Shown here: positions 3,073 to 18,075 of the stretch, in pieces
Numbering within the stretch: position 1 is the first letter of the stretch
Layout: the number at the start of each line of letters is the position of its first letter
Assembly: GCA_015999745.1 (NCBI GenBank)
Contig: JAECQP010000012.1
Span: 1-64,000, forward strand
Reading direction: 5' to 3'
Origin: Sphingobacteriia bacterium
GTDB lineage: Bacteria > Bacteroidota > Bacteroidia > Chitinophagales > Chitinophagaceae
DNA: 64,000 bases
Translations under genes and position numbers: made by a program
Notes under the pieces: model-generated
What the model was told of the DNA's origin: nothing
What the model saw: the letters and a program-made list of their open reading frames with translations, nothing else
Database searches by the model: none

Positions 3073-4134
3073 ATGAGTATAGATATTTCAAAAATTGTAA
3101 GCAAGTTTGACACAGCTCAAGACTCTCTTGTTCTTCAGCAATCTGACTTATCGCTGCAATCTATTTCTGACATGGTAGAGAGTGGCTCTATTGATATTAG
3201 TCCAAAATATCAGCGTAGAGAGCGTTGGGACGAAGTAAAAAATTCTGGTCTAATTGAATCCTTTTTATTAAATATTCCTGTACCTCCTATTTATTTGGCT
3301 GAAGATGAATACGGAGTTTATTCAGTAATTGACGGTAAGCAAAGAGTGACGGCAATTTACAAATTCCTCAAGGAAAATTTGGCGCTACGACATTTAGAGA
3401 AATTCAATGAATTAGAAGGATATAACTTTGAGGGTTTACCTACTCCTCTTAAAAATGCATTAAAAATTAGACCATATTTAAGAGTTGTCACTTTATTGAG
3501 ACAATCCGATCCTGATTTAAAACATGAAGTTTTTCTAAGACTAAACAAAGCTGGTGTTGCTCTTAATGCCCAAGAAATCAGGAATGTTGCATTTAGGGGA
3601 AAGTTCAATGAAATGTTATTTGAACTTTCTGAAGCCCCCTATTTAAAAACACAATTAAAAGCAACTAAAGAAAGTAAAACCTACAGGGAAATGATTGATG
3701 TGCAATATGTATTGCGTTTTTTTACAATAAAAGAGTTTTGGAAGAATTTCCCAGGTAACATGGATAAGGCAATGGATAGGTTTATGGCTGCGAATTATAA
3801 AAATTCAGCACAGGTAATTGAAGGCCAGAAAAAGGATTTTTTAGACGCATTGAATTTCTGTCAAGCAATTTGGGGTAAAGACGGCTTTTTGAAACCTAAT
3901 TCAAATAGCCGAGTTCTTCAAGGTTTTTATGATATTCAAATGGTATGCTCATCTATGCTCTCCGCAAGACAAAAATCAATATTGATTGGCAAAAAAACTC
4001 AAGTTAAAAACGCATTAGTAAAGGCATTGAAAGATGATTCCGACTTTTCAGAGTCAGTCACTCAATTTACATCCAACCCTACCAATGTAGAGTATAGGAT
4101 TTCAAAGTTTATTGAAGTACTTAAATCCATTTAA
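3073..4134 (+). CDS. DUF262 (GmrS/ParB-like) domain protein
   Basis: This 353-residue protein carries an N-terminal DUF262 domain. The signature is visible as PKYQRRERW (residues 44-52) and VIDGKQRVTAI (residues 85-95), where DGKQR is the nucleotide-handling DGQQR-type motif. The rest (about 180-353) is helical and replaces the HNH/DUF1524 nuclease half found in full-length GmrSD-like proteins, so the protein seems to rely on its partner. DUF262 domains occur in type IV restriction enzymes (GmrS half) and other defence systems. The stop codon shares one base with the ATG of the HEPN gene (TAATG), indicating translational coupling. Both genes are more AT-rich than the flanking core genes, which suggests horizontal acquisition. 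Confidence 0.85.
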   Translation: MSIDISKIVSKFDTAQDSLVLQQSDLSLQSISDMVESGSIDISPKYQRRERWDEVKNSGLIESFLLNIPVPPIYLAEDEYGVYSVIDGKQRVTAIYKFLKENLALRHLEKFNELEGYNFEGLPTPLKNALKIRPYLRVVTLLRQSDPDLKHEVFLRLNKAGVALNAQEIRNVAFRGKFNEMLFELSEAPYLKTQLKATKESKTYREMIDVQYVLRFFTIKEFWKNFPGNMDKAMDRFMAANYKNSAQVIEGQKKDFLDALNFCQAIWGKDGFLKPNSNSRVLQGFYDIQMVCSSMLSARQKSILIGKKTQVKNALVKALKDDSDFSESVTQFTSNPTNVEYRISKFIEVLKSI

Positions 4135-5063
4135 TGTCTGCGAAGTCCGACTTGATGACTCGTCTCGAATATTTGAGCGATGCAATAATGGAGGAGCCCT
4201 CTTTAATCGATGTAGGAGTATTACCCTCAACTCATAACGGCGTTGCAAACTTACTTAGAAAGGGGTTAGGCATTGTTGCTTTTAATATAATAGAAGACTT
4301 TATAAAAAAGAGAGCTGAGGAAGCCTTATTATCGGTTTCAAATTCGGGTGTAAGTTTTGCTAATTTGACAAATGCCCTTAAAGAATCCTCTACTTTAGGT
4401 GCGATAAAATCTCTCCTTTTCAATGCAAATCTATTAAAGAAAGATCCGGCTTTTGATGTAATCAATTTGGTCCAAACTGAGGCGTATAATGTTTATTCAA
4501 CTAAAGTCCATCCATTTTCACTTTCAAAATATTCTTTAGTTTATTCTGAATCAAATGTGTCATCAAGTGCGATTCCCGACTTACTAAAATCGTTTGGTAT
4601 AGATAATTGTTGGCCAACATTAAAATTAATTTCTGATTCAATTTGTGGCGGTATTCCGGATTTAGCAAGCGCTTTTAATAATGCAAGTCAACGAAGACAT
4701 AGTGCAGCACACAATGTTGATTTTAACTATTCTCATGTGTGGTTAAGCAATATTAAATCTGAAATTTTGGCTATAGCTGCAGCAATTGATATAGCACTGT
4801 CTGCCAAGTGTAGGCAAATCAATAGATTTCCGGCAAATCAAATTTCCAGTTTAGACATTTCTATAGACTTGAACTATAGATTTATCGAGTTAGTTTCACC
4901 GACCTTATTCAAAGAGAGAAAAAACCTCGGAGGGAAAGTAATTAAAAACTGGCCAACCCTTGCTGCTGCAATTGCAAGCCATCAGCCAAGACTAATAACC
5001 AAAAAGGAATTTCTCATTATTTTAAATTCAAGCAGTAGGATAATTGATTGGCACACAGCTTAA
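4134..5063 (+). CDS. HEPN-domain protein (candidate RNase), partner of DUF262
   Basis: This 309-residue protein has a central helical region with the HEPN nuclease motif R-x4-H: NASQRRHSAAHN places R188 and H193 at the expected spacing. It most resembles the RiboL-PSP/MAE_28990 class of HEPN domains, which Anantharaman and colleagues linked to DUF262 proteins. The N-terminal third (about 1-60) contains a hydrophobic helix, GLGIVAFNIIEDFI, that looks like a dimer or packing helix and not a membrane anchor. The gene starts on the last base of the DUF262 stop codon. A role as the toxic RNase effector of a two-gene defence system is inference from the motif and the pairing. Confidence 0.7.
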   Translation: MSAKSDLMTRLEYLSDAIMEEPSLIDVGVLPSTHNGVANLLRKGLGIVAFNIIEDFIKKRAEEALLSVSNSGVSFANLTNALKESSTLGAIKSLLFNANLLKKDPAFDVINLVQTEAYNVYSTKVHPFSLSKYSLVYSESNVSSSAIPDLLKSFGIDNCWPTLKLISDSICGGIPDLASAFNNASQRRHSAAHNVDFNYSHVWLSNIKSEILAIAAAIDIALSAKCRQINRFPANQISSLDISIDLNYRFIELVSPTLFKERKNLGGKVIKNWPTLAAAIASHQPRLITKKEFLIILNSSSRIIDWHTA

Positions 5064-5105: not shown

Positions 5106-5255
5106 CGAATATCGCCCATCGACTTTTGGAATACTGACTCGACTTCAGTAAATTGGCCATCAACTAATCTGCTAGTAGTGGGCCAAGCCAGCGATAGAAT
5201 CACAGATACCAAATACTCAATTTTAGCCTTTGGAGGCAGCACATACAATGAATGA
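5106..5255 (+). pseudogene. Possible C-terminal remnant of a gene once upstream of the GT32 gene
   Basis: After an in-frame TGA at 5103 a frame stays open for 49 codons and ends at TGA 5253-5255, overlapping the GT32 ATG by eight bases (ATGAATGA). The reading (RISPIDFWNTDSTSV and later YSILAFGGSTYNE) looks protein-like, and a stop/start overlap of this sort is typical of an operon. It may be the tail of a truncated gene left when the cassette was inserted. The evidence is short and could be chance. Confidence 0.25.
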
Positions 5256-6129
5256 TCACATGAATGTTAATGAAACCAGTGAAATAGACCCTCTGGGGGA
5301 AAGCGATCGTACTCAGTCCAATTTTGTCCGAGAATTGGTACAACTTTATAATAAACCAGTTCCAACACCCGCAGCGTACTTATTGACATCCCCACCAAAA
5401 TGCATTGTGCAGTTCTGGGATGATCTTGACCGATTGCCTCTGGATGTTAAAGATTGTATGGCATCATGGAAGCAGCTCGAACAGTCTGGATTCGAACTTC
5501 AGGTTTTCGACGAGAAGTCAACGAGGGAATTTATACGTGTCCATTTGGGTTCAAGATATGTAAGGGCTTTTGATAAGTGCTATCATCCTTCAATGAAATC
5601 AGACTATTTCCGTTACAGCTACATTTATGTAAAGGGCGGCTTTTATATCGATGCTGACGATATCTATCACGGCAAGACAATAGATCACCTCTTCACTGAT
5701 GGAAGGTTGAAACTTCAACCATTCTGCTACGACATTGCAACAGCTCAAATGGTTCAACCTTCAGTTTTTCTCAATCCGGAGGCAGACAAGCTAGGCTGGA
5801 TTTTCTACTTCAATACCACCCCTATGATCGCAGGTCCAAATCATCCTATAATAGAGCGTGCACTTCTGAATGCAACAGCAGCTCTTGAGCAAGAATCAAG
5901 CGATGAATTACCTGAAGTTCAGGCAACCACTGGTCCTGGTAATCTCACGAGATCTATATTTGAAGTGATGACCGAAGAAAGTTGCCGGGAGGAAACGCTG
6001 CTGGTTTTGCATGACTGGGAGACGACTTCCACAAGTAAATGGCCACTCAGTTACCGAAATGATAAGAGAAACTGGAGACTGTCAAATCAACAAATCTATC
6101 GAGCGTTAAGGGGGGCGGAAGATCAGTGA
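5248..6129 (+). CDS. Glycosyltransferase family 32 (DXD sugar transferase)
   Basis: The enzyme transfers a sugar from a nucleotide donor and is expected in the cytoplasm. From the chosen ATG it has 293 residues. The family hallmarks are KCIVQFWDDLDRLP near residues 51-64, PSMKSDYFRYSYIYVKGG (114-131) and the metal-binding DXD motif in FYIDADD (D135, D137). The same frame could start at a TTG at 5230, but GGAGG at 5232-5236 is a well-placed Shine-Dalgarno for the ATG at 5248, so that start is preferred. The stop overlaps the GTG start of the next gene (GTGA). The acceptor is unknown. It is coupled to the GT25-sulfotransferase-GH16 protein and the carbamoyltransferase. Confidence 0.85.
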   Translation: MNDHMNVNETSEIDPLGESDRTQSNFVRELVQLYNKPVPTPAAYLLTSPPKCIVQFWDDLDRLPLDVKDCMASWKQLEQSGFELQVFDEKSTREFIRVHLGSRYVRAFDKCYHPSMKSDYFRYSYIYVKGGFYIDADDIYHGKTIDHLFTDGRLKLQPFCYDIATAQMVQPSVFLNPEADKLGWIFYFNTTPMIAGPNHPIIERALLNATAALEQESSDELPEVQATTGPGNLTRSIFEVMTEESCREETLLVLHDWETTSTSKWPLSYRNDKRNWRLSNQQIYRALRGAEDQ

Positions 6130-8324
6130 ACTTAGCACGCCCATCAATAGCAGTTGTCGGTTATGTTTTCCGATTATGGTTGAATCTTCGCCGGCTGTTA
6201 CCCAAGAGAAAGTGTAAAGTATTCTCTGTTCAAGGTGCCGGAACAGTCCCTGCAATTAGCATGATCTATGTCATCAATCTCGACCGTGAACCGAGCCGTT
6301 GGTCCAAGATGAAGAAACAGCTTAAGTACATTTTGGATTCATCGGGAACAGAAATTCTGAGGCTCACTGAGCGCCATGTCGCCGTCGATGCCAATCAATT
6401 CTCGCAGGAGCTAGGCAATTACGCTGAAGTTGATCCATTTTATACGTTAGGAGATCAGCTTTTTGTAGAACCCCAACCTTTAGTTCTTCCTACGCGTCTT
6501 GAGTTAAATACCCCAATTCGAATGAGCCGAGCGGAAATTGCAGTCGCCCAGTCACATATCAATGTTTGGAAGAAAGTTTCTGCGGGTAATTATGAGTATG
6601 TACTTATTCTTGAAGACGATACATGGTTTCATTCCAGATTTGCCAAATATCTGGATCAGGCTTGGGCCGAAATAGTGGCAGAAAATGATGTAAAAGGTAA
6701 ATTCGATGTTCTTTATGTGTCGTATCTCGAAGTGAAGCACGGTGCTCCAAAAAACTTTATTTCAAGTAATGTATTCCGCCCGATGAGAGGGCTCTGGCAT
6801 TTGTCCGGATATGTTCTCTCTCGCGAAGGTGCGGAAAAACTCATCCGCCTGCTTCCTTGTCGTGGCCCCGTTGACCTCTGGATAAATAAGCATTTTGAAG
6901 CATTGGATGTACGTGCAATTAAAAGTTCTCTTATTAGCCAACGACGCGACTTTAAATCTACCAACTCATATTCAATACTCCCTTCGCTTACTAAAATCGG
7001 TGTTATCAATAGTGAAGGTGCATCTTCATTCAATATCCGCCCAATTGAGTATCCTGTGTTTGCTTTTGGTCCAGAAGGTTCTGGCCATTCATCACTTGCG
7101 ATGGCTTTGTCCATGCTGGGGTACAGATGTTGCAGTGATTTTAAAAATTTACCCGCTTCTGAGATGGAGCGACTTCTTACGGGAAAAGAAGATCGTATTT
7201 TTAACGCATATGTAAACATTGGATCTTTGAATGCAAATATCTGGGAACTTCGAATTCGCTACCCCAAGGCCAAATTTATTATTACCGCTACCAATGATAG
7301 TACTACAGACTGCACTTCCCCATGTGTTGAGGGCGACCTTAATGGTGCCAACACTACTGTACTTCACCTGCATGAATTAAATAAATGGCAAGTCATTTGC
7401 GAGCACCTCAGATGTGCTCCGCCTGCATGCTCTTTCCCGGAGCTAAAGGATCTAGGTCAAAGAGAAATTCTCGACGAAATCATCGAAGTAGATAAGGTTC
7501 CAAAATGTAAAATACCCAGGCGAGATAATTCACCATGGCTGGTTGAGCTTCATAGTTGGTGGAAAGGTATTAACTCTGTTGTAGAAGAAGATGGGCTGAA
7601 GGGAAATGGGAGGTTAGTTAGGATCATCGACCGTTTGGAACATCTTGATACGCAACGCTGGCTCCTACGGAGTGATACTTTCGCAGATAATTTAGCGTTG
7701 TTTCGTCCTTCAAACATCGAATTTCGTTCAGGAATAGGGGCAATATTTTCAATTAAAAAGGAGCCCCTCGGTGTTCGAGATTATTCTGCAGCATCGTTAT
7801 GCAGTCTTGATCAGTATTTGTTTGGGAAATTCGAAGCGACCATTCAAGCGTCAAATGTGCCCGGTGTGATCACCGGCATATTCCTATACCGTATTTCACC
7901 ACGACAAGAAATAGATATCGAGATTGCAGGTAACCGACCAGACCGCCTTTTGGTCAATGTCTTCTATAACCCGGGTGATGAAGGAGCAAATTTTGGCTAT
8001 GGCTATAGAGGCGCGCCAACCTATATTGAACTTGGATTCGATGCATCCAAGGCATACCATCGCTTTGCTATTGAATGGAGTGCGTGCGAAATTAGATGGT
8101 TAGTTGACGATAAGCTCGTCCATAGGCGTTCGATCTGGGATCCGACACCAATCCCAAATCTTCCAATGACGTTTCATGTCAACAGTTGGCTAACTCGTTC
8201 TAAACAGCTTGCCGGGCGAATCAAAAACCGATGTCTTCCTGCAACCATAATAGTAGGTAAGATTGCTCTGGAGGCAAATCCTATTATTGCCTTGTCCAAA
8301 TCTTATGATCAACAGCAGTCATAA
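6126..8324 (+). CDS. Three-domain protein: GT25 glycosyltransferase + sulfotransferase-like + GH16
   Basis: The protein has 732 residues and starts with GTG overlapping the previous stop. Domain 1 (about 46-285) is a family 25 glycosyltransferase of the LPS type: IYVINLDREPSRW at 47-59 and the DXD-like LILEDD at 160-165. Domain 2 (about 308-445) follows the P-loop sulfotransferase fold: FGPEGSGHSSLAMAL (314-328), LGYRC, LRIRYPKAKFI (375-385) and an ICEHLR..P...FPEL end. The usual basic residue of the PAPS loop and the Arg of the second loop are missing, so activity is doubtful. Domain 3 (about 515-715) is a GH16 beta-jelly roll with the intact catalytic motif EIDIE (595-599). No signal peptide or clear membrane helix is seen, so the GH16 domain appears to be cytosolic, which is odd for that family. 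Confidence 0.8.
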   Translation: MNLARPSIAVVGYVFRLWLNLRRLLPKRKCKVFSVQGAGTVPAISMIYVINLDREPSRWSKMKKQLKYILDSSGTEILRLTERHVAVDANQFSQELGNYAEVDPFYTLGDQLFVEPQPLVLPTRLELNTPIRMSRAEIAVAQSHINVWKKVSAGNYEYVLILEDDTWFHSRFAKYLDQAWAEIVAENDVKGKFDVLYVSYLEVKHGAPKNFISSNVFRPMRGLWHLSGYVLSREGAEKLIRLLPCRGPVDLWINKHFEALDVRAIKSSLISQRRDFKSTNSYSILPSLTKIGVINSEGASSFNIRPIEYPVFAFGPEGSGHSSLAMALSMLGYRCCSDFKNLPASEMERLLTGKEDRIFNAYVNIGSLNANIWELRIRYPKAKFIITATNDSTTDCTSPCVEGDLNGANTTVLHLHELNKWQVICEHLRCAPPACSFPELKDLGQREILDEIIEVDKVPKCKIPRRDNSPWLVELHSWWKGINSVVEEDGLKGNGRLVRIIDRLEHLDTQRWLLRSDTFADNLALFRPSNIEFRSGIGAIFSIKKEPLGVRDYSAASLCSLDQYLFGKFEATIQASNVPGVITGIFLYRISPRQEIDIEIAGNRPDRLLVNVFYNPGDEGANFGYGYRGAPTYIELGFDASKAYHRFAIEWSACEIRWLVDDKLVHRRSIWDPTPIPNLPMTFHVNSWLTRSKQLAGRIKNRCLPATIIVGKIALEANPIIALSKSYDQQQS

Positions 8325-8362
8325 TATAGGTTGATAATTTTTAATTCAAGTCAGCTAGCACA

Positions 8363-10000
8363 ATGAAAATATTATCATTCAACCCAGGCCATGATGGCGC
8401 ATTCGCTTATCTCGATGATGGGCATTTAGTTGCTTCCATTGAGGCCGAGAAACATTCTCGTTATCGTCACTCAACACTGTCTATTCCAGATGTATTCAGC
8501 GCTCTTGCTGAACTCAAAGAAGTTCCTGATGTGCTTTGTAGAGGTGGGTGGTGGCCTAGCGAGGGCTATCTATCTGAACATCGCTTTCAAGCAGGATATC
8601 ATGGCGTTAGCAACAGCGATATAATTGTTGGCTCACAGCGCCTCTTGGGGAAGGCAGTTAGATATTTCTCATCTTCCCATGAACGTTCCCATCTTCTCTG
8701 TGCTTTTGGTATGTCGAATCTGCCTAAAGGAACCCCATGCTATGCATTACTTTGGGAAGGAGTAATCGGATCATTTTACAAAATCGATGCTGCATTGAAC
8801 TTGATTAAGCTCGCCGATGTCATGCCTGAACCTGGACACCGCTACGCCTTGCTTTATGGCCTAGGAGATCCAACTTTTGATAAGAGCGTTGCCGAATTTT
8901 CCAGATTTTCTGACGCAGGAAAACTTATGGCTTTGGCTTCATTTTCGAAGCGAAGGAAGCCGTCGGATGACGAAGAGAAGATAATCGAATTTCTAATGCA
9001 GGATTGCTTGCACCTCAAGCCGAAAGAGTGTGAAACCTTAAGGCACTACCGACACTACAACGTTGGGCTTGATGATCAGGAGTTTCGCAACTTCGCAGGT
9101 ATCGTTAGCGATAAAATATTTGATCGTTTTTATCAATATGCTAAATCAAATATGAAGGAGAGGATACCATTGCTGATTTCAGGAGGCTGCGGATTAAATT
9201 GTGATTGGAATACAAAATGGAGGGAAGCCGATCTTTTTTCAGAGGTTTTTGTGCCTCCTGTTGCAAACGATTCAGGATCCGCTATCGGTACAGCTATTGA
9301 TGCCCAATTCCATTTTACAGGAAATCCCAAGATAAATTGGAATGTCTACTCTGGTCTTGAATTTATTGCCAGTGATACATTTGACTCATCATTATTTGAT
9401 GAATACGAGACCAACTTCACTATGATTGCTGAAATGTTAGCAAACAACCTAATCATCGGCTGGGTAAATGGAAAATACGAAATCGGACCACGCGCATTAG
9501 GAAATCGTTCTATTCTTGCCTCACCATTCGAGGAAAAAACGAGGGAGCGATTGAATCAGATTAAACAGCGCGAACAGTTTCGTCCGATTGCGCCCGTGTG
9601 TCTGGAAGAAGATGCTGAAAGATGGTTTGGCTGTCATGGCCCTAGCCCATTTATGCTATACACACAGCTCGTTTCTACGGACGCACTAGCAGCGGTAACA
9701 CATGTCAACCGAACGGCGCGTATTCAAACTGTATCCTCTGTGACTAATAGTCCCTTGTATAAATTGCTTATGGCATTTAAGGCGCTTACCGGTTATGGCA
9801 TCTTGTGTAATACTTCCCTGAATTTCAAAGGAAGGGGATTTATAAATAACATAACCGATCTTTCGGCTTATACGATAGACCGAAATTTGGATGGCTTTGT
9901 GATTGAAGGGCGAGGTTATATGCTGAAGTCGTCGAAAAATTATCAGGCGTACTTGAATAAGACAAATCTGGTAGCAGGCTCGGGAGCGGTAACGGATTAA
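8363..10000 (+). CDS. Carbamoyltransferase, NodU/TobZ/CmcH family
   Basis: This enzyme family makes carbamoyl-AMP from carbamoyl phosphate and ATP and passes the carbamoyl group to a hydroxyl of a sugar or natural product. The 545-residue protein has the full length of the family: N-terminal Kae1/YrdC-type fold with FNPGHDGA (6-13), a metal-ligand region HERSH (106-110), the glycine loop ISGGCGLNCDWN and the C-terminal EIGPRALGNRSILA and ILCNTSLNFKGRG stretches. It starts 38 bases after the trimodular gene on the same strand, so it probably belongs to the same transcript. The likely acceptor is the glycan built by the two upstream glycosyltransferases, which is inference. Confidence 0.88.
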   Translation: MKILSFNPGHDGAFAYLDDGHLVASIEAEKHSRYRHSTLSIPDVFSALAELKEVPDVLCRGGWWPSEGYLSEHRFQAGYHGVSNSDIIVGSQRLLGKAVRYFSSSHERSHLLCAFGMSNLPKGTPCYALLWEGVIGSFYKIDAALNLIKLADVMPEPGHRYALLYGLGDPTFDKSVAEFSRFSDAGKLMALASFSKRRKPSDDEEKIIEFLMQDCLHLKPKECETLRHYRHYNVGLDDQEFRNFAGIVSDKIFDRFYQYAKSNMKERIPLLISGGCGLNCDWNTKWREADLFSEVFVPPVANDSGSAIGTAIDAQFHFTGNPKINWNVYSGLEFIASDTFDSSLFDEYETNFTMIAEMLANNLIIGWVNGKYEIGPRALGNRSILASPFEEKTRERLNQIKQREQFRPIAPVCLEEDAERWFGCHGPSPFMLYTQLVSTDALAAVTHVNRTARIQTVSSVTNSPLYKLLMAFKALTGYGILCNTSLNFKGRGFINNITDLSAYTIDRNLDGFVIEGRGYMLKSSKNYQAYLNKTNLVAGSGAVTD

Positions 10001-11194: not shown

Positions 11195-12925
11195 ATGGCC
11201 AGATTTTTATTGCCCTCCCTCTCCGTTTTGCTCCTCCTTGCCTGTAACAGCAACCAGGCATCCAAAGAGGAAGCCAATGAAAAAGACAATTCCATCGTAG
11301 GCTGCTACGGCACCATCACCACCGACAAAGACTGGTACAGTTCCGGCAAAAAAGCGCCGAAATTAAACGGATTAAAAGGGATTGATTTTCGAATCTCAAC
11401 TACCAACAAAGAAGCGCAGGACTATTTCAATCAGGGAATGATGCTGTCCTATGGTTTCAATCATGCCGAAGCTGCCAGGTCTTTTTACGAAGCTACCCGG
11501 CTGGATTCCTCCTGTGCCATGGGGTATTGGGGCTTTGCCTATGTGTTAGGCCCCAACTACAATGCCGGTATGGAAAAAGACCACTATCAACGGGCCTATG
11601 ATGCCACGGTAAAAGCGCAGTCGCTTGCTGCTAACTGCACACCCAAAGAGCAGTCGCTGATCAAAGCATTGGCGTTCCGGTACGCTGCCAATCCGCCGAA
11701 AGACCGCAGTTCGCTAGACCTGGCCTATGCAGCTGCCATGAAAAAGGTCTACAACCAGTTTCCTTCCGACCCCGATATTGGAGCGCTTTATGCTGAATCG
11801 CTGATGAACCTGCATCCCTGGGATTTATATGAGAAGCAGACCAAAAAGCCCCGGCCCTGGACGCCGGAGTTGGTTGCGGTACTGGAACACCTGATTCAAC
11901 AAAACCCCCGCCATCCGGGTGCGCATCACTTTTATATTCATGCCCTGGAAACCTCCTCCACGCCCGAAAAAGCGTTGGAGAGTGCCCAATTGCTCTACAC
12001 ACTGGTTCCCGGCTCCGGCCACCTGGTGCACATGCCTTCTCATATTTACATCAACACCGGAGACTATCACCAGGGTTCACTCGCCAACCTGAAAGCCGTG
12101 GAAGCAGACAGCATTTACACCACCGCCTGCCATGCACAGGGCATGTACCCCTTAAGCTACTATCCGCACAATCATCATTTTTTAGCAGCCACGGCCACGC
12201 TGGAAGGGAATTCCTCGCTGGCCTGGATGGCCGCCAAAACATTGCAGCAACATACAGCCAAAGACATCATGCACCTGCCCGAATGGGGAACCCTGCAGCA
12301 TTACTATACGATCCCTTATTATGTGGCTACCAAATTGTCTTTGTGGGACACCCTGCTTACGATTCCTGCGCCTCCCAAAGACCTGGTATATCCCAATGCG
12401 GTGTGGCACTATGCCAGGGGAATGGCTTGCCTGGGTAAGCAGGATCTACCGCAAGCCAAAGCCGAATGGAAGCAGCTCAACGCTTTAGCAGCCGACCCTT
12501 CGCTGCAACAGTTGACGGTATGGGGAATCAATACCACCGCCGATCTGGCGCAAATTGCTTCCAAAGTATTGGCCGCAGGCATTGCGGCAAAGCAAAAGGA
12601 CTATGAGCAATCCATCACCCTGCTGAAACAGGCCGTTGCCATAGAAGACAACCTCAATTACAATGAACCCCCCGATTGGTTTTTCTCTGTAAGGCATCAT
12701 CTGGGAGCCGTATTGCTCAAAGCCGGAAAATACAGTGAGGCAGAACAGGTGTACCAAAAAGATTTACAAGCCTGGAAGAAAAACGGATGGGCTTTAATTG
12801 GCTTGTACAACGCCCAGCGCCTACAGAAAAAAGACGTCCTTGCCCAAACCACCCAAACCGCTTTCAACCAAGCCTGGAAATATGCAGACATCAACATCAC
12901 CGCTTCGTCGGGGATGGGGGATTAG
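11195..12925 (+). CDS. TPR-repeat lipoprotein
   Basis: The 576-residue protein has a short signal peptide ending in the lipobox LLLAC, so Cys17 is the predicted lipid-attachment site and the protein sits on the periplasmic side of a membrane. The mature part is helical with tetratricopeptide repeats, clearest near residues 65-110 (AQDYFNQGMMLSYGFNHAEA) and at the C-terminus (LGAVLLKAGKYSEAEQVYQ, about 505-525). The central part has the histidine-rich stretches PGAHHFYIHALE and VHMPSHIYI, characteristic of a widespread uncharacterised TPR family. TPR proteins usually act as docking partners. No neighbour suggests a specific pathway. Confidence 0.8.
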   Translation: MARFLLPSLSVLLLLACNSNQASKEEANEKDNSIVGCYGTITTDKDWYSSGKKAPKLNGLKGIDFRISTTNKEAQDYFNQGMMLSYGFNHAEAARSFYEATRLDSSCAMGYWGFAYVLGPNYNAGMEKDHYQRAYDATVKAQSLAANCTPKEQSLIKALAFRYAANPPKDRSSLDLAYAAAMKKVYNQFPSDPDIGALYAESLMNLHPWDLYEKQTKKPRPWTPELVAVLEHLIQQNPRHPGAHHFYIHALETSSTPEKALESAQLLYTLVPGSGHLVHMPSHIYINTGDYHQGSLANLKAVEADSIYTTACHAQGMYPLSYYPHNHHFLAATATLEGNSSLAWMAAKTLQQHTAKDIMHLPEWGTLQHYYTIPYYVATKLSLWDTLLTIPAPPKDLVYPNAVWHYARGMACLGKQDLPQAKAEWKQLNALAADPSLQQLTVWGINTTADLAQIASKVLAAGIAAKQKDYEQSITLLKQAVAIEDNLNYNEPPDWFFSVRHHLGAVLLKAGKYSEAEQVYQKDLQAWKKNGWALIGLYNAQRLQKKDVLAQTTQTAFNQAWKYADINITASSGMGD

Positions 12926-12974
12926 GGTGGGGGTGCTTATAGCGTAAATAGATATATTGGCGTTAATTCGCAAT

Positions 12975-13001
12975 TCGCAATTCGCAAATTGCGAATTGCG
13001 A
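12975..13001. repeat. 27-bp near-perfect palindrome built of CGCAATT units
   Basis: CGCAATTCGCAA (12976-12987) and its exact complement TTGCGAATTGCG (12989-13000) flank a single central base, and T/A at 12975/13001 extends the pairing. One more CGCAATT unit precedes it directly, so the site combines direct and inverted repeats. It lies between the TPR lipoprotein and the ATPase gene. It could be a regulator site, a short mobile repeat or a cruciform-forming element. Confidence 0.7.
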
Positions 13002-13107
13002 TACAATTTTATACTGTGTCTGAGCAGAATGAGGTCCAAATACCACTAAACCCTTAATATTTAATGAAATTTTAAAATTAAACCTTAGAATTTTTAAAGT
13101 TATGCTT

Positions 13108-13115
13108 TAAATTTG
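13108..13115 (+). promoter_or_regulatory. Bacteroidota -7 box before the AAA/DUF4143 gene
   Basis: TAAATTTG matches TAnnTTTG exactly and ends six bases before the ATG at 13122. This would give a leaderless or almost leaderless transcript, and it argues against the in-frame TTG at 13113, which lies inside the box. Confidence 0.4.
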
Positions 13116-13121
13116 CAAGAT

Positions 13122-14381
13122 ATGATGGATTTTGTAAACAGGCATATCACTGAAAAACTCAAAAGAACGCTGAAGGCTAACCCGGTAACATTTCTCAACG
13201 GTGCAAGGCAAACCGGAAAAAGCAGCCTGGTGCAACAATTGGCCCCGGAGTTGGGGGATGCAAAACATCCTGCTGAGTACCAGACCTTCGACCGGCCCAC
13301 CGTCATGGCTGCAGCTTCAGCAGCACCTGAAGCTTTTTTGAAAGCTTACCAGCTACCGCTGATCCTTGATGAAGTACAACTGGTACCTGGTCTTTTCAGA
13401 GCGCTGAAGGTAGTGGTGGATGAGATGCGTTTATCGGATAAGTCTACCGCAAACGGGAAATTCATTCTTACCGGATCTGCCAATATTATGGCGCTTCCAC
13501 AACTGGCAGACCCGTTGGTAGGCAGGATGAGTATGCTTACTTTGTATCCTTTTACTGCAAGCGAAGCCACCTATAATATTTCCGGAGGAATAGACCGCTT
13601 ATTAACAATGAATTTCAGGGGAATGCAAGATCGCGGACTTACTTTACAAAATGCGATCAGATGGGCCACTTACCCTGAGATATCAAAGGCGGAAGATGAG
13701 GAAAGAAAAACCTGGTTTGATGGTTATATCACTTCTATTCTTCAAAGGGATGTAAAGCAGATTGCAGACTTAGAGAAAAGCGCTTTGCTGCCGCATATGT
13801 TGCAGGTACTGGCATCTCGTATTGGTGGAATCATCAATGAATCTGATATCGGCAGAGAGGTAGGCATGAACTCAGTGACGGGTAAATCGTACCGCAACAT
13901 CCTTAAGATGATGTTTCTCACTTTCGACATCAAACCCTGGTCGCGCAATATTGCAAAGCGATTGGTTAAATCACCAAAAGGATATTTTATTGATACCTCA
14001 CTGGCCTGTCATATTCTGGACTATAAGTTGGAGGACATTGCCAAAACAAAGCCAGAATTATATGGCCATATGGTAGAAAACTTCGTGGCTACAGAACTAC
14101 TCAAACAGTTGGCCAATGGCGATATCAAAGCTGCATTGTATTATTATGGAACAAGCGATGGTAAAGAAATAGATTTTATTCTAGAAAAACCGGATGGCAC
14201 CGTACTGGCCATTGAAGTCAAAAAGAATGAAAAGGTTACCAGCGAAGACTTTAAAATAATCAGACAGTTCGAAACGATTGCCGGGCCCGATTTTATTGGC
14301 GGTATTGTATTGTATGCCGGAAAGGACGTAGTTCCTTTTGGTACCAACCTGTGGGCCGTTCCGTTTCACGTACTCTGGTAA
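13122..14381 (+). CDS. AAA-family ATPase with DUF4143 domain
   Basis: The protein (419 residues from this ATG; a second ATG follows directly at 13125) has an N-terminal AAA_14 ATPase domain with Walker A GARQTGKSS (27-35) and Walker B LILDEVQ, plus the sensor stretch KFILTGSAN. The C-terminal half is a DUF4143 domain with a PD-(D/E)xK-like region: GKEIDFILEKPDG followed by LAIEVKKNEK, where D, E and K could form a nuclease site. Proteins of this kind are very common and often multi-copy in bacteria, and their role is not established. It stands alone. The choice of start is supported by the -7 box just upstream. Confidence 0.88.
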   Translation: MMDFVNRHITEKLKRTLKANPVTFLNGARQTGKSSLVQQLAPELGDAKHPAEYQTFDRPTVMAAASAAPEAFLKAYQLPLILDEVQLVPGLFRALKVVVDEMRLSDKSTANGKFILTGSANIMALPQLADPLVGRMSMLTLYPFTASEATYNISGGIDRLLTMNFRGMQDRGLTLQNAIRWATYPEISKAEDEERKTWFDGYITSILQRDVKQIADLEKSALLPHMLQVLASRIGGIINESDIGREVGMNSVTGKSYRNILKMMFLTFDIKPWSRNIAKRLVKSPKGYFIDTSLACHILDYKLEDIAKTKPELYGHMVENFVATELLKQLANGDIKAALYYYGTSDGKEIDFILEKPDGTVLAIEVKKNEKVTSEDFKIIRQFETIAGPDFIGGIVLYAGKDVVPFGTNLWAVPFHVLW

Positions 14382-14717: not shown

Positions 14718-15875
14718 TTGAAAGTAGAACAAAATATATCGAGACTGAAATATTTGCTGTCATTATACAAGATGACACCAGATCAATTGCTTTTGCTAAT
14801 CAGCGAAGGGCTTAAAAACCCTTTGACCAAAGAGGATATTTTAACCACTGAAATAAAAGTCAGCAACTTAAAACGAATAGACAAAGTTTTCAATAAAGGA
14901 CTTCATTATTACCTGGACCCGAAATCTCCGGAAGTATCAAAAGAAGCGAGTATATTTTTTCGGAAAACCAAATTTAGTGCTGACCTGAATATCGGTGCGA
15001 AGAAAATAGTAAATCAGTTTGAAGAGTTTAAAATTTCTCTCTCAGCAATTTCAAAACTCGCAGAAATTAAAATTGAAAGGTCCTTGCCTGTTTTTGGAAT
15101 AAATCAAGATCCTAAAATTGTTGCTAAACAAATCCGAAAAGAATTATATCCGGAATTCAATCCTGTTCCAAAGGAGTTTCTTAGAGATTTAATTTCAACC
15201 TTTGCAAAAAACAACATACTGGTATTTGAGTTTGTTGAAACATGGAACAAAAAAGAAAAAGCCAATATTGATGGATTCTTTTTAAATCCCAATGTTATTG
15301 TTCTTAAAAGGCAACAGTCCTCATTCAGAAGAGAAATCTTTACTTTAATTCATGAGTTAGGACATTACCTGATCAATGAAGAGGAAATTGAACAATTAGA
15401 TATTTCAAATTTTGGCAATAATAAACTTTCGGCAATAGAACGATGGTGCAACGATTTTGCCTATTATTTTCTTGCGGGTGAGTTTGATAATGCTTTTGAA
15501 CAAATTGAAAAAGCGGAGAGTAAAAACGACTACCAATTTGATTTAATAAAAAACATTTCAAAAGAAACTCACCTTAGTCAAATTGCTTTGTTTACAAAAC
15601 TTCTATATCAGCAGAAAATATCTCCAGCTAATTACAACTCAATTAAGGCCGATTTTGATGAACAATACAGAATTAGGCTGGAAGATGAGAAGAAACAAAG
15701 GGAGTTGGATAAAATGCATGGAATTAAGAAAGGTGGCTCAACACCTAAGCCAATAAATTCTCCTTTACTTATCTCAACTATCCAGACAGCTTTTTATGAA
15801 GGTATTATTAACGAGTACGACGTTTGTAAAACGTTGAATATTTCACCTGATCAATTAGACAAGTATCTTCCGTGA
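14718..15875 (+). CDS. ImmA/IrrE-family metallopeptidase (COG2856)
   Basis: The 385-residue protein contains the zinc-protease motif HELGH at residues 212-216, in the context FTLIHELGHYLINEEE, with the downstream glutamate-rich helix and the ERWCNDFAYYFL segment typical of ImmA/IrrE. Such proteases cleave regulators, for example phage-type repressors or antitoxins. The usual N-terminal helix-turn-helix is not obvious; residues 1-60 are helical and might replace it. The start is a TTG because no ATG occurs near the N-terminus. The stop overlaps the GTG start of the PIN-like gene (GTGA), so the two are translated together. The pair is AT-rich. Confidence 0.82.
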   Translation: MKVEQNISRLKYLLSLYKMTPDQLLLLISEGLKNPLTKEDILTTEIKVSNLKRIDKVFNKGLHYYLDPKSPEVSKEASIFFRKTKFSADLNIGAKKIVNQFEEFKISLSAISKLAEIKIERSLPVFGINQDPKIVAKQIRKELYPEFNPVPKEFLRDLISTFAKNNILVFEFVETWNKKEKANIDGFFLNPNVIVLKRQQSSFRREIFTLIHELGHYLINEEEIEQLDISNFGNNKLSAIERWCNDFAYYFLAGEFDNAFEQIEKAESKNDYQFDLIKNISKETHLSQIALFTKLLYQQKISPANYNSIKADFDEQYRIRLEDEKKQRELDKMHGIKKGGSTPKPINSPLLISTIQTAFYEGIINEYDVCKTLNISPDQLDKYLP

Positions 15876-16447
15876 AAGTAGTAATCGATACTAATTCGCT
15901 TCTGTCGTTGGTTCGTTACTACTTGCCATTCGACAAGAATGGGGTACTTTTTCAGTTCTTCAAAGAAAAGATCGAAACAGGCGAAATTATTATAGTTGAC
16001 AAAGTTTTTGAGCAATGCGAATATATCTCAAAAGGTATCGTACTTACAAAACTTATTTACCTAAAAGAGAAAGATTTTTTAAAGGCAGCAAAACTGCCTT
16101 ATAAAACGGACTCTCTGCTGGCCCCTTCGCCAGCAAAATTTCTACGGCAGGTAGAAAATCAGTTCATTAATAATATAGTTAGAAATCAGCGAAAGCTGAC
16201 CGAAACGGAATTTGAAAATCAGAAAAATGCTTTTCTGGATGATGCAGACATGAAGCAAATTATTCTTTGCCTGAACCTAATAAAAGATGGGGAGAAAGTT
16301 GTATTGGTGACAGAAGAGACAGAAAACAGCAACGACAACAAACTTTTCAAAAAAATTCCTGCAATCTGTAAGGAATTAAATATTGATACACTGACTTTGC
16401 CGGAACTGTTGGCAAAATATGATGGTATTGACATTGATTTCCAATAA
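15872..16447 (+). CDS. PIN-like (DUF4411-type) protein, partner of the ImmA/IrrE peptidase
   Basis: The 191-residue protein begins VVIDTNSLLSLVRYY, the N-terminal strand and first acidic residue of a PIN nuclease, and has further acidic positions in FLDDADMKQI and in the VTEET strand. The layout matches the DUF4411 branch, which is commonly encoded beside COG2856 peptidases and is regarded as a toxin-antitoxin-like pair. A ribonuclease activity is likely from the fold but not shown. The start is GTG overlapping the upstream stop. No terminator is visible before the convergent HAD gene. Confidence 0.7.
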   Translation: MKVVIDTNSLLSLVRYYLPFDKNGVLFQFFKEKIETGEIIIVDKVFEQCEYISKGIVLTKLIYLKEKDFLKAAKLPYKTDSLLAPSPAKFLRQVENQFINNIVRNQRKLTETEFENQKNAFLDDADMKQIILCLNLIKDGEKVVLVTEETENSNDNKLFKKIPAICKELNIDTLTLPELLAKYDGIDIDFQ

Positions 16448-17285: not shown

Positions 17286-17984
17286 ATGATCGTTGTTATT
17301 ACGGGCGCTTCCAAAGGAATTGGCAAAGCCATTGCTGAACAGTTTGCCGCTGCCGGGCACCAGTTGTTGCTCTGCAGCCGGGGCGAAAAATCCCTCTACG
17401 ATACAGTGGCCGATCTGCAAACCCGCTTTCCGGAATGCACCGTTAAGGGTCGTGTTTGCGACATGAGCAATAAAGCGGATGTTCAGTCTTTTGCTTCCTG
17501 GTGTTTGCAGCAGGGCACGCCGGATATCCTGGTGAACAATGCCGGCCAGTTTGTTCCGGGCAGTATCCACAACGAAGCCGATGGCATCCTGGAACAAATG
17601 ATTGAAGTGAACCTCTACAGCGCCTATTATTTAACAAGGGCGCTTTTACCCAATATGATTAATGCTAAATCCGGTCATATTTTCAATATCTGTTCCATTG
17701 CTTCGCTCAATGCCTACGCCAACGGGGGCAGTTACAGCATCAGCAAATTTGCCCTCCTGGGCTTCAGCAAAAACCTGCGGGAAGAGTTAAAACCCCACGG
17801 CATTAAGGTGACGGCGGTTTGTCCGGGCGCCACCCTCAGCAGCAGTTGGGATGGCTTTGAGATCGACCCCAGGCGGATCATGGAAACGAATGATGTGGCC
17901 AAAATGGTTTTTGCCGCTACCAGCCTTTCCCCGATGGCGGTGGTGGAAGACATCATCCTGCGTCCGCAACTGGGCGACCTGTAA
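17286..17984 (+). CDS. Short-chain dehydrogenase/reductase (SDR)
   Basis: The 232-residue cytosolic oxidoreductase has the classical SDR layout: NAD(P)-binding TGASKGIG (residues 6-13), the NNAG motif in ILVNNAGQFVPG, the catalytic serine in FNICSIASL and the YxxxK pair in SYSISKFALLG. A C-terminal PGATLSSSW stretch follows the active site as usual. The substrate cannot be read from the sequence; 3-ketoacyl or sugar alcohol reductases are the nearest types. It is followed by the LpxH-like gene after 91 bases, which may or may not share the transcript. Confidence 0.88.
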   Translation: MIVVITGASKGIGKAIAEQFAAAGHQLLLCSRGEKSLYDTVADLQTRFPECTVKGRVCDMSNKADVQSFASWCLQQGTPDILVNNAGQFVPGSIHNEADGILEQMIEVNLYSAYYLTRALLPNMINAKSGHIFNICSIASLNAYANGGSYSISKFALLGFSKNLREELKPHGIKVTAVCPGATLSSSWDGFEIDPRRIMETNDVAKMVFAATSLSPMAVVEDIILRPQLGDL

Positions 17985-18075
17985 GGGCAAAGACCGGGCC
18001 GCCCCTTAACAATAGCGTAATCATTCCCTAACATTCACTTCATATACCGATTGGAACTTTGCTAAACTCCAATCT

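Follow-up and report, generated by a model that had tools for sequence, protein, structure and literature searches.

A horizontally mobile cassette built around a GT25–GH16 fusion gene, tentatively linked to a phage-protective envelope glycan

GT25 glycosyltransferases are known from lipooligosaccharide galactosyltransferases and human COLGALT1, and GH16 domains, which are normally secreted, from lichenases such as Bacillus BglS (3i4i) and from ExoK-type glucanases. O-carbamoyltransferases of the TobZ, GdmN and NodU type form another described group, and serotype-converting glycosyltransferase modules, whose enzyme families differ from those treated here, block phage adsorption. We analyzed a 64,000-nucleotide (nt) stretch of DNA from a Sphingobacteriia bacterium of the family Chitinophagaceae (GCA_015999745.1, contig JAECQP010000012.1, positions 1 to 64,000; hereafter the window), in which a single gene at 6126..8324 joins a GT25 domain, a sulfotransferase-like remnant and a GH16 domain. 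We tentatively read this fusion as the central gene of a cassette that has spread by horizontal transfer, makes a short carbamoylated envelope glycan and is likely to be phage-protective, and we assign this reading a probability of about 0.4. The observations behind it are the set of genes and their joint transfer, motif residues that do not vary, the contacts for 3′-phosphoadenosine 5′-phosphosulfate (PAPS) that are not kept, the spread of the genes, and their frequent defence neighbours.

The open reading frame (ORF) of the fusion, on the forward strand like the other cassette features and the gene pair at 3073..5063 described below, has a GTG start and encodes 732 residues in an uninterrupted frame with zero internal stops. 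Its start codon lies in a 4-nt overlap with the gene upstream, and the N-terminus, MNL, is common to most of 17 aligned copies. The GT25 domain (6261..6875, residues 46-250) passed the Pfam cut-off for PF01755 over residues 46-250 (E = 2.4e-16; 60.7 bits against 24) and contains EDD at residues 163-165 (6612..6620), which we take to be the donor/metal motif. The GH16 domain is of the lichenase type (7608..8285, residues about 495-720); it passed the cut-off for PF00722 at residues 548-694 (E = 3.1e-23; 82.6 bits against 22), has the jelly-roll fold, and carries the catalytic motif EIDIE at residues 595-599 (7908..7922). The catalytic roles of motif residues in glycosyltransferases, GH16 enzymes and carbamoyltransferases are family knowledge. 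The original prediction, made from the sequence alone, had placed GT25, sulfotransferase-like and GH16 parts in that order within 732 residues, with LILEDD-type and EIDIE motifs; the open frame and the Pfam matches bore out the order, and both motifs were found.

Homologs were searched with three queries, the window protein and its Rhizobium and Aliarcobacter copies, at E <= 0.001 with about 8000 scored candidates each. These yielded 2537, 1353 and 2279 matches, respectively, totals that may include one-domain proteins. Among the best matches listed, PF00722 and PF01755 occurred together in 120/120, 120/120 and 118/120 by an eye count, giving at least 358 distinct homolog clusters with both GT25 and GH16 (358/360 among the matches listed); the two without both domains were short (436 and 449 aa). 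Where names were given, they were mostly beta-glucanase, family 16 glycosylhydrolase and lipopolysaccharide (LPS)-type glycosyltransferase. This recurrence, together with copies on complete plasmids and Escherichia coli chromosomes, ruled out a frame error or chimeric assembly as the source of the fusion; no point in support of such an artefact was found, and we regard its probability as negligible. The original prediction had allowed for two separate genes joined by a frame error and had suggested a database search for the same domain order; both matters are settled in favour of a real and recurrent fusion. In 122 aligned homologs drawn from the three search lists, EDD of GT25 and Q-E-x-D-x-E of GH16 were each present in 122/122, and E595, D597 and E599 never varied. 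The ratio of nonsynonymous to synonymous substitution rates (dN/dS) was 0.09-0.15 in GT25 and GH16 (0.09-0.12 in GH16 alone), a sign of purifying selection. Judged from these alignments, strict selection acts on the motif residues of GH16.

The fusion lies between two further enzyme genes. The first cassette gene (5230..6129, TTG start) encodes a GT32-like glycosyltransferase of 299 aa with DxDD at residues 141-144. It passed the cut-off for Pfam Gly_transf_sug (9.8e-08; 33 bits against 23), and D141, D143 and D144 were invariant in 16/16 copies aligned (of 17). The third (8363..10000) encodes a TobZ/NodU-type O-carbamoyltransferase of 545 aa with both expected domains, Carbam_trans_C (9.6e-54) and Carbam_trans_N (7.4e-21), and with HERSH at 106-110, a motif to which we presume a metal role. 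This is the most conserved cassette gene, with 220/545 residues invariant in 12 copies and a dN/dS of about 0.09. The GT32-like gene adjoined the fusion in 17/17 loci with a complete fusion gene, and the carbamoyltransferase gene in 13/17, standing last in 11 and first in two (L032 and L033); it was absent from the stretches examined at L030, L031, L047 and L052. Two truncated loci were consistent with the cassette, L007 with the GT32-like gene and L008 with the carbamoyltransferase gene. The latter was interrupted by an IS4-type transposase gene at L029 and broken into three frames at L056. A phylogeny of the 17 fusions set apart the pair with the carbamoyltransferase gene in first place, the two-gene copies (in two forks) and the three-gene clade, with some forks open. 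A lone truncated carbamoyltransferase with 70.5% identity to that of the cassette, a possible cassette remnant, was also seen among insertion sequences on a Sinorhizobium sojae plasmid (L084, 7028-8176).

When the window was compared with six full-length copies, DNA similarity started at 5249-5404 and stopped at 9945-9957, which delimits the mobile cassette to 5249..9957. Because DNA similarity ends where the cassette ends, the moving unit appears to be the cassette as such. The original prediction missed this: it treated the fusion by itself, whereas the gene belongs with a GT32-like and usually a carbamoyltransferase gene in a horizontally mobile set that is often near defence genes.

The distribution of the fusion is sporadic, reaching at most about 1% of the genomes sampled. 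Full-length copies were present in 4/395 genomes sampled from the phylum of the window (own genome included), where the other 85 matching genomes had mainly GH16 alone, and in 2/396 genomes of its order (own included); none was found in 14 other same-genus genomes. Two further phylum samples gave 2/398 and 1/297 (sampling centres included). Five other named genomes, namely two Gammaproteobacteria, a Maribacter, and metagenome-assembled genomes (MAGs) of Phycisphaerae and Firmicutes, carried fusions of 64-78% identity. Of 299 genomes sampled from the phylum to which the Firmicutes MAG belongs, the MAG itself was the only one with the full-length fusion (1/299), a weak negative at such frequencies. 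The window fusion paired with the copy in this MAG (100/100) and not with other Bacteroidota copies, and the two share 82% DNA identity, with synonymous divergence (dS) of 0.6-0.96 by gene. Unless the contig of the MAG was assigned to the wrong bin, this grouping points to horizontal transfer.

Copies were also found on mobile elements. Among 72,556 plasmid records, nine carried a near-full-length fusion (Citrobacter, Rhizorhabdus, Klebsiella, four Aliarcobacter, Rhizobium and Sphingobium; 37-59% identity). The GT32-like partner was present in 9/9 of these, and the carbamoyltransferase on at least four of the nine, as seen among the best 20 of 309 matching records. Four of the six plasmid records examined were typed as conjugative. 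With the Klebsiella copy as query, the fusion was detected in 4/5,426 E. coli genomes, two of which share a strain name; all four copies are chromosomal, and the three examined lie inside an integrated island with VirB-type conjugation genes. No E. coli copies were found with the window DNA in a near search or with the Citrobacter copy in a distant search. A phage origin was rejected on zero matches in 50,697 phage records; a scan of IMG/VR, which reaches close relatives only, returned four stretches that fit the peptide pattern, none encoding a relative.

A transposon of fixed structure was likewise rejected, as no repeats flank the window copy and those of Klebsiella and Aliarcobacter differ in kind. 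On the Klebsiella plasmid (L030), 706-bp direct repeats (94%) at 12646-13351 and 17305-18010 bracket a two-gene cassette. Each repeat has a short tyrosine-recombinase gene, and upstream of the E. coli copies stands a single broken relative of it. On both sides of the cassette of the Aliarcobacter plasmid pM830MA (L031, 1944-17143), gene modules are separated by repeats of about 90-300 bp that resemble module-exchange sites. Several resistance genes and blaLMB-1 occupy a region some 6-13 kb away from the Citrobacter copy on its IncC plasmid (L028, 10802-17364). A search of same-genus genomes for an empty site found the flanking genes themselves absent (matches in 1/41 and 2/41, own genome included).

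The middle domain of the fusion (7056..7460, residues about 311-445) was delimited by profile matches and a weak match to Sulfotransfer_4 (PF17784) at residues 311-388 (E = 0.0017; 18.6 bits, under the cut-off of 22.8); PF17784 was precomputed for about 34/360 listed homologs (2, 1 and 31 per 120, counted by eye). A profile of the 17 copies searched against solved structures matched best the sulfotransferase family protein 9kf1, with a whole-sequence E-value of 5.9e-5 and weak single stretches, followed by 8y9p (0.02) and 5tiz (0.031). Structure searches with the whole fusion model were uninformative on this domain, as the chains listed were almost only those of GH16. In the full model its succession of alpha and beta elements is compatible with a P-loop fold, but folded alone (6 sequences) it reached a predicted local distance difference test (pLDDT) score of 45.6, too poor for a structure search.

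In sulfotransferases, PAPS is held by a basic P-loop residue and a second-loop Arg. The P-loop of the window protein, GPEGSGHSS (7068..7094, residues 315-323), is without a basic residue, and the strand expected to bear the second-loop Arg reads KFIITATND. Lys or Arg stands at position 320 or 321 in 35/122 homologs, and Arg within 387-392 in 10/122. The P-loop is variable across the 122, with a gap at position 320 in 32, every one from the Rhizobium-type list, and it is gone in one clade. The lack of both PAPS contacts, described in the original prediction, therefore holds for the window protein and does not extend to the whole family. The domain also evolved faster than GT25 and GH16 in 3/3 pairs (dN/dS of 0.30, 0.37 and 0.135 vs 0.09-0.15), with saturated dS and a small difference in the third pair. 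We conclude that the middle domain is sulfotransferase-like but probably structural, because the PAPS-contact residues are not kept; a structural role had been raised as an option from the outset, and the faster evolution agrees with it. A working sulfotransferase in the window protein was judged unlikely on the missing residues, though some relatives keep a P-loop Lys.

The fusion had further been called a cytosolic protein without a signal peptide. Inspection by eye revealed no signal peptide, in line with that view. The AlphaFold2 (AF2) model predicts an amphipathic basic helix at residues 8-22 (6147..6191) with possible membrane contact, and the hydrophobic moment reaches 0.57 at residues 10-27, ahead of a basic stretch. 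Such helices dock many enzymes of lipid-linked glycans on membranes. Given the predicted helix, a protein attached to the cytosolic face of the membrane seems likelier than one free in the cytosol, although the sequence of this stretch is poorly conserved.

We then compared the surroundings of the cassette at 18 loci. Up to four ORFs per side of at least 150 aa within 10 kb gave 112 neighbours, or 107 after exclusion of five above 1000 aa. The control set comprised 105 ORFs from 15 stretches placed by hand elsewhere in these genomes and plasmids, E. coli not sampled; three control stretches were excluded, two as too short and one as containing the cassette of G396. At E <= 1e-5 the 107 neighbours matched 391 PADLOC families vs 52 for the 105 controls, a rough contrast that counts families and not proteins, with models that are redundant and overlap ordinary ATPases and methyltransferases. 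Known or candidate PADLOC defence genes lay within 10 kb at 8/18 loci, where PDC models denote candidate systems. The eight loci comprise the window, whose matches are given below, and seven others, with NsnA at L028 (6.7e-33), JetA (6e-135) and JetC of Wadjet at L051, PDC-S06 (1e-202) and PtuA (2e-72) at L053, PDC-S06 (8.5e-158) and AbiD (8e-70) at L029, Shedu SduA at L031 (1.8e-90), a GmrSD-type match (Orf5, 2e-169) at L032, and a type I methyltransferase with a restriction enzyme at L057. Two more loci are candidates by annotation only, L047 with an ABC-three-component system at 8-13 kb and L033 with a multiubiquitin/ThiF operon, of whose region two proteins had no PADLOC match. Phage_integrase was found in 6/107 neighbours vs 2/105 controls. 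GmrSD_N occurred in 3/107 neighbours (3/18 loci) and was outside the 25 commonest control families. No glycosyltransferase family was among the 25 commonest of 139 neighbour Pfam families. At L052 (11096-13828, G250), the cassette directly adjoins what look like the glycogen-synthesis genes glgC and glgA.

In the window, a pair of genes outside the cassette at 3073..5063 encodes a GmrSD_N/DUF262 protein (3073-4134) and a RiboL-PSP HEPN protein (4134-5063), both assigned by Pfam. The first of these matched PADLOC NsnA (1.5e-72) and PD-T4-2_A (4.3e-36), and the pair is probably a defence system of its own. Downstream of the cassette, a DUF4143 ATPase (13113-14381; PADLOC PDC-S01, 1.8e-127) is followed at 14718-16447 by an IrrE/M78 protein and a small protein, which overlaps it by 4 nt; these are further defence or toxin-antitoxin candidates.

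If the cassette makes a phage-protective envelope glycan, its parts could work as follows. The GT32-like and GT25 domains would add sugars in sequence, the GH16 domain would cleave or re-join the chain as a hydrolase or transglycosylase, and the sulfotransferase remnant would serve as a spacer that keeps GT25 and GH16 together. The carbamoyltransferase would cap a hydroxyl and may be dispensable, because some copies are without it. The N-terminal helix would dock the fusion enzyme on the cytoplasmic side of the inner membrane. The acceptor there would be a lipid-linked envelope molecule, and the product would mask or alter a phage receptor. An acceptor of this kind is favoured because the GT25 is of the type that Pfam describes as LPS biosynthesis, because of the amphipathic helix, and because the few listed homologs with an organism name come mostly from hosts that we take to be diderms (an Anaerolineales protein is an exception). 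The single occurrence among the 299 genomes from the phylum of the Firmicutes MAG counts weakly in the same direction. A phage-related benefit is favoured because of the mobility and the defence neighbours. If the cassette is protective, it would represent defence through glycan chemistry made inside the cell, not through nucleases or toxins, and this would explain why a secreted-type glucanase domain with intact active-site residues is kept inside a glycosyltransferase.

Several observations weigh against this proposal. Genes for a flippase, a polymerase or export are missing from the cassette, and an envelope product would therefore need host export. None of the three cassette genes matched a PADLOC (2023) model at E <= 0.01, and the neighbour contrast is coarse as described above. 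No defence gene was recognised at 8/18 loci, whose neighbours were only partly scanned one by one; individually scanned neighbours without a PADLOC match were two each at L050, L031 and L033 and one each at L055 and L056. At L050 (8225-18144, G152) the cassette seems to have only core genes around it, which read as RadA-like and AlaS-like, and the weak BrxL match of the RadA-like neighbour (1.1e-6) was not counted as defence. The Firmicutes MAG, whose contig may be misbinned, and the Anaerolineales protein are members that fit an LPS acceptor badly. The first 43 residues of the fusion, which include the predicted helix, were its least conserved part in 2/3 pairs (dN/dS of 0.52 and 0.45; 0.14 in the other). 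Transglycosylase activity of the GH16 domain is a possibility offered by its family, and we infer the product, the acceptor and the protection alike.

The absence of export genes and the presence of the cassette in many bacterial groups would also fit a universal soluble acceptor. The transferases could thus act in the cytosol, decorating phage DNA, a nucleotide, tRNA or a protein, or making a small glycosidic inhibitor, with GH16 setting the level. GmrSD, the namesake of GmrSD_N, cuts sugar-modified DNA, and GmrSD_N proteins adjoin the cassette at three of the 18 loci. The amphipathic N-terminal helix and the LPS-type affinity of the GT25 domain point instead to the membrane, and to our knowledge the known DNA glucosyltransferases belong to other families. 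We therefore hold a soluble target to be unlikely, though worth keeping in mind. A similarly low probability is given to an ordinary accessory module that decorates the envelope and is mobile for reasons other than phages, such as surface variation or the exclusion of other plasmids. Defence genes are found near mobile DNA of any kind, which allows for a merely passive association, and the conjugative plasmid records and the VirB-type genes around the E. coli copies suit such a module. The two core genes are never separated at the 17 complete loci, which show two gene orders; this speaks against such a module, as does the lack of common glycosyltransferase neighbours, L052 with its glgC and glgA aside. 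Far less probable is a GH16 domain that has lost its enzyme activity and acts as a sugar-binding module to hold the acceptor for GT25. Its location in a protein without a visible signal peptide is unusual for GH16 and would suit this role, but the three invariant catalytic-motif residues and the low dN/dS of the domain are difficult to reconcile with a lost activity.

With the envelope glycan as the preferred reading, the cassette might exemplify a new and widespread class of glycan-based anti-phage defence, in which the fusion enzyme of a mobile GT32 and GT25-GH16 gene set, with or without a carbamoyltransferase, builds and recuts a carbamoylated oligosaccharide from the cytoplasmic side, with conjugative plasmids and integrated elements as carriers in many bacterial groups; we consider this broader claim doubtful at present. 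As copies occur on conjugative plasmids and in an integrated element of E. coli, the defence idea is directly testable in E. coli. Among the papers covered, literature searches, including searches for terms in the main text of PMC11238990, PMC6827312, PMC8649781 and PMC10121019, brought up no recognisable description of the fusion or the cassette.

Each single domain of the fusion belongs to a known family, and the differences from the described systems lie in how the domains are combined. Unlike GT25 enzymes such as the lipooligosaccharide galactosyltransferases and COLGALT1, the cassette GT25 is fused to a sulfotransferase-like remnant and GH16. Unlike BglS-type lichenases and ExoK-type glucanases, its GH16 domain is C-terminal to a glycosyltransferase and has no signal peptide by eye, and the NCBIfam scores of the fusion are far under the cut-offs for BglS (82.4 vs 300) and ExoK (42 vs 350). 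The middle domain resembles the sulfotransferases 9kf1, 5tiz and 8y9p (named SgdX2) in its YP-x-AK and W-x-x-(L/I)C...P...FP stretches, and measures about 146 aa vs 212-263 in those chains. The third gene shares both Carbam_trans domains with the TobZ, GdmN and NodU enzymes (7xb6, 2.2e-35; TobZ, about 1e-27). It is not NodU (NCBIfam NF041651, 249.9 bits vs a cut-off of 1000), and, unlike all three, it is linked to two glycosyltransferases on mobile DNA. Compared with the serotype-converting modules, the cassette contains neither flippase nor bactoprenol transferase genes and was not matched in the phage records. In its proposed mode of action the cassette would nevertheless work like them, as a small mobile set of glycosyltransferases that alters an envelope glycan.

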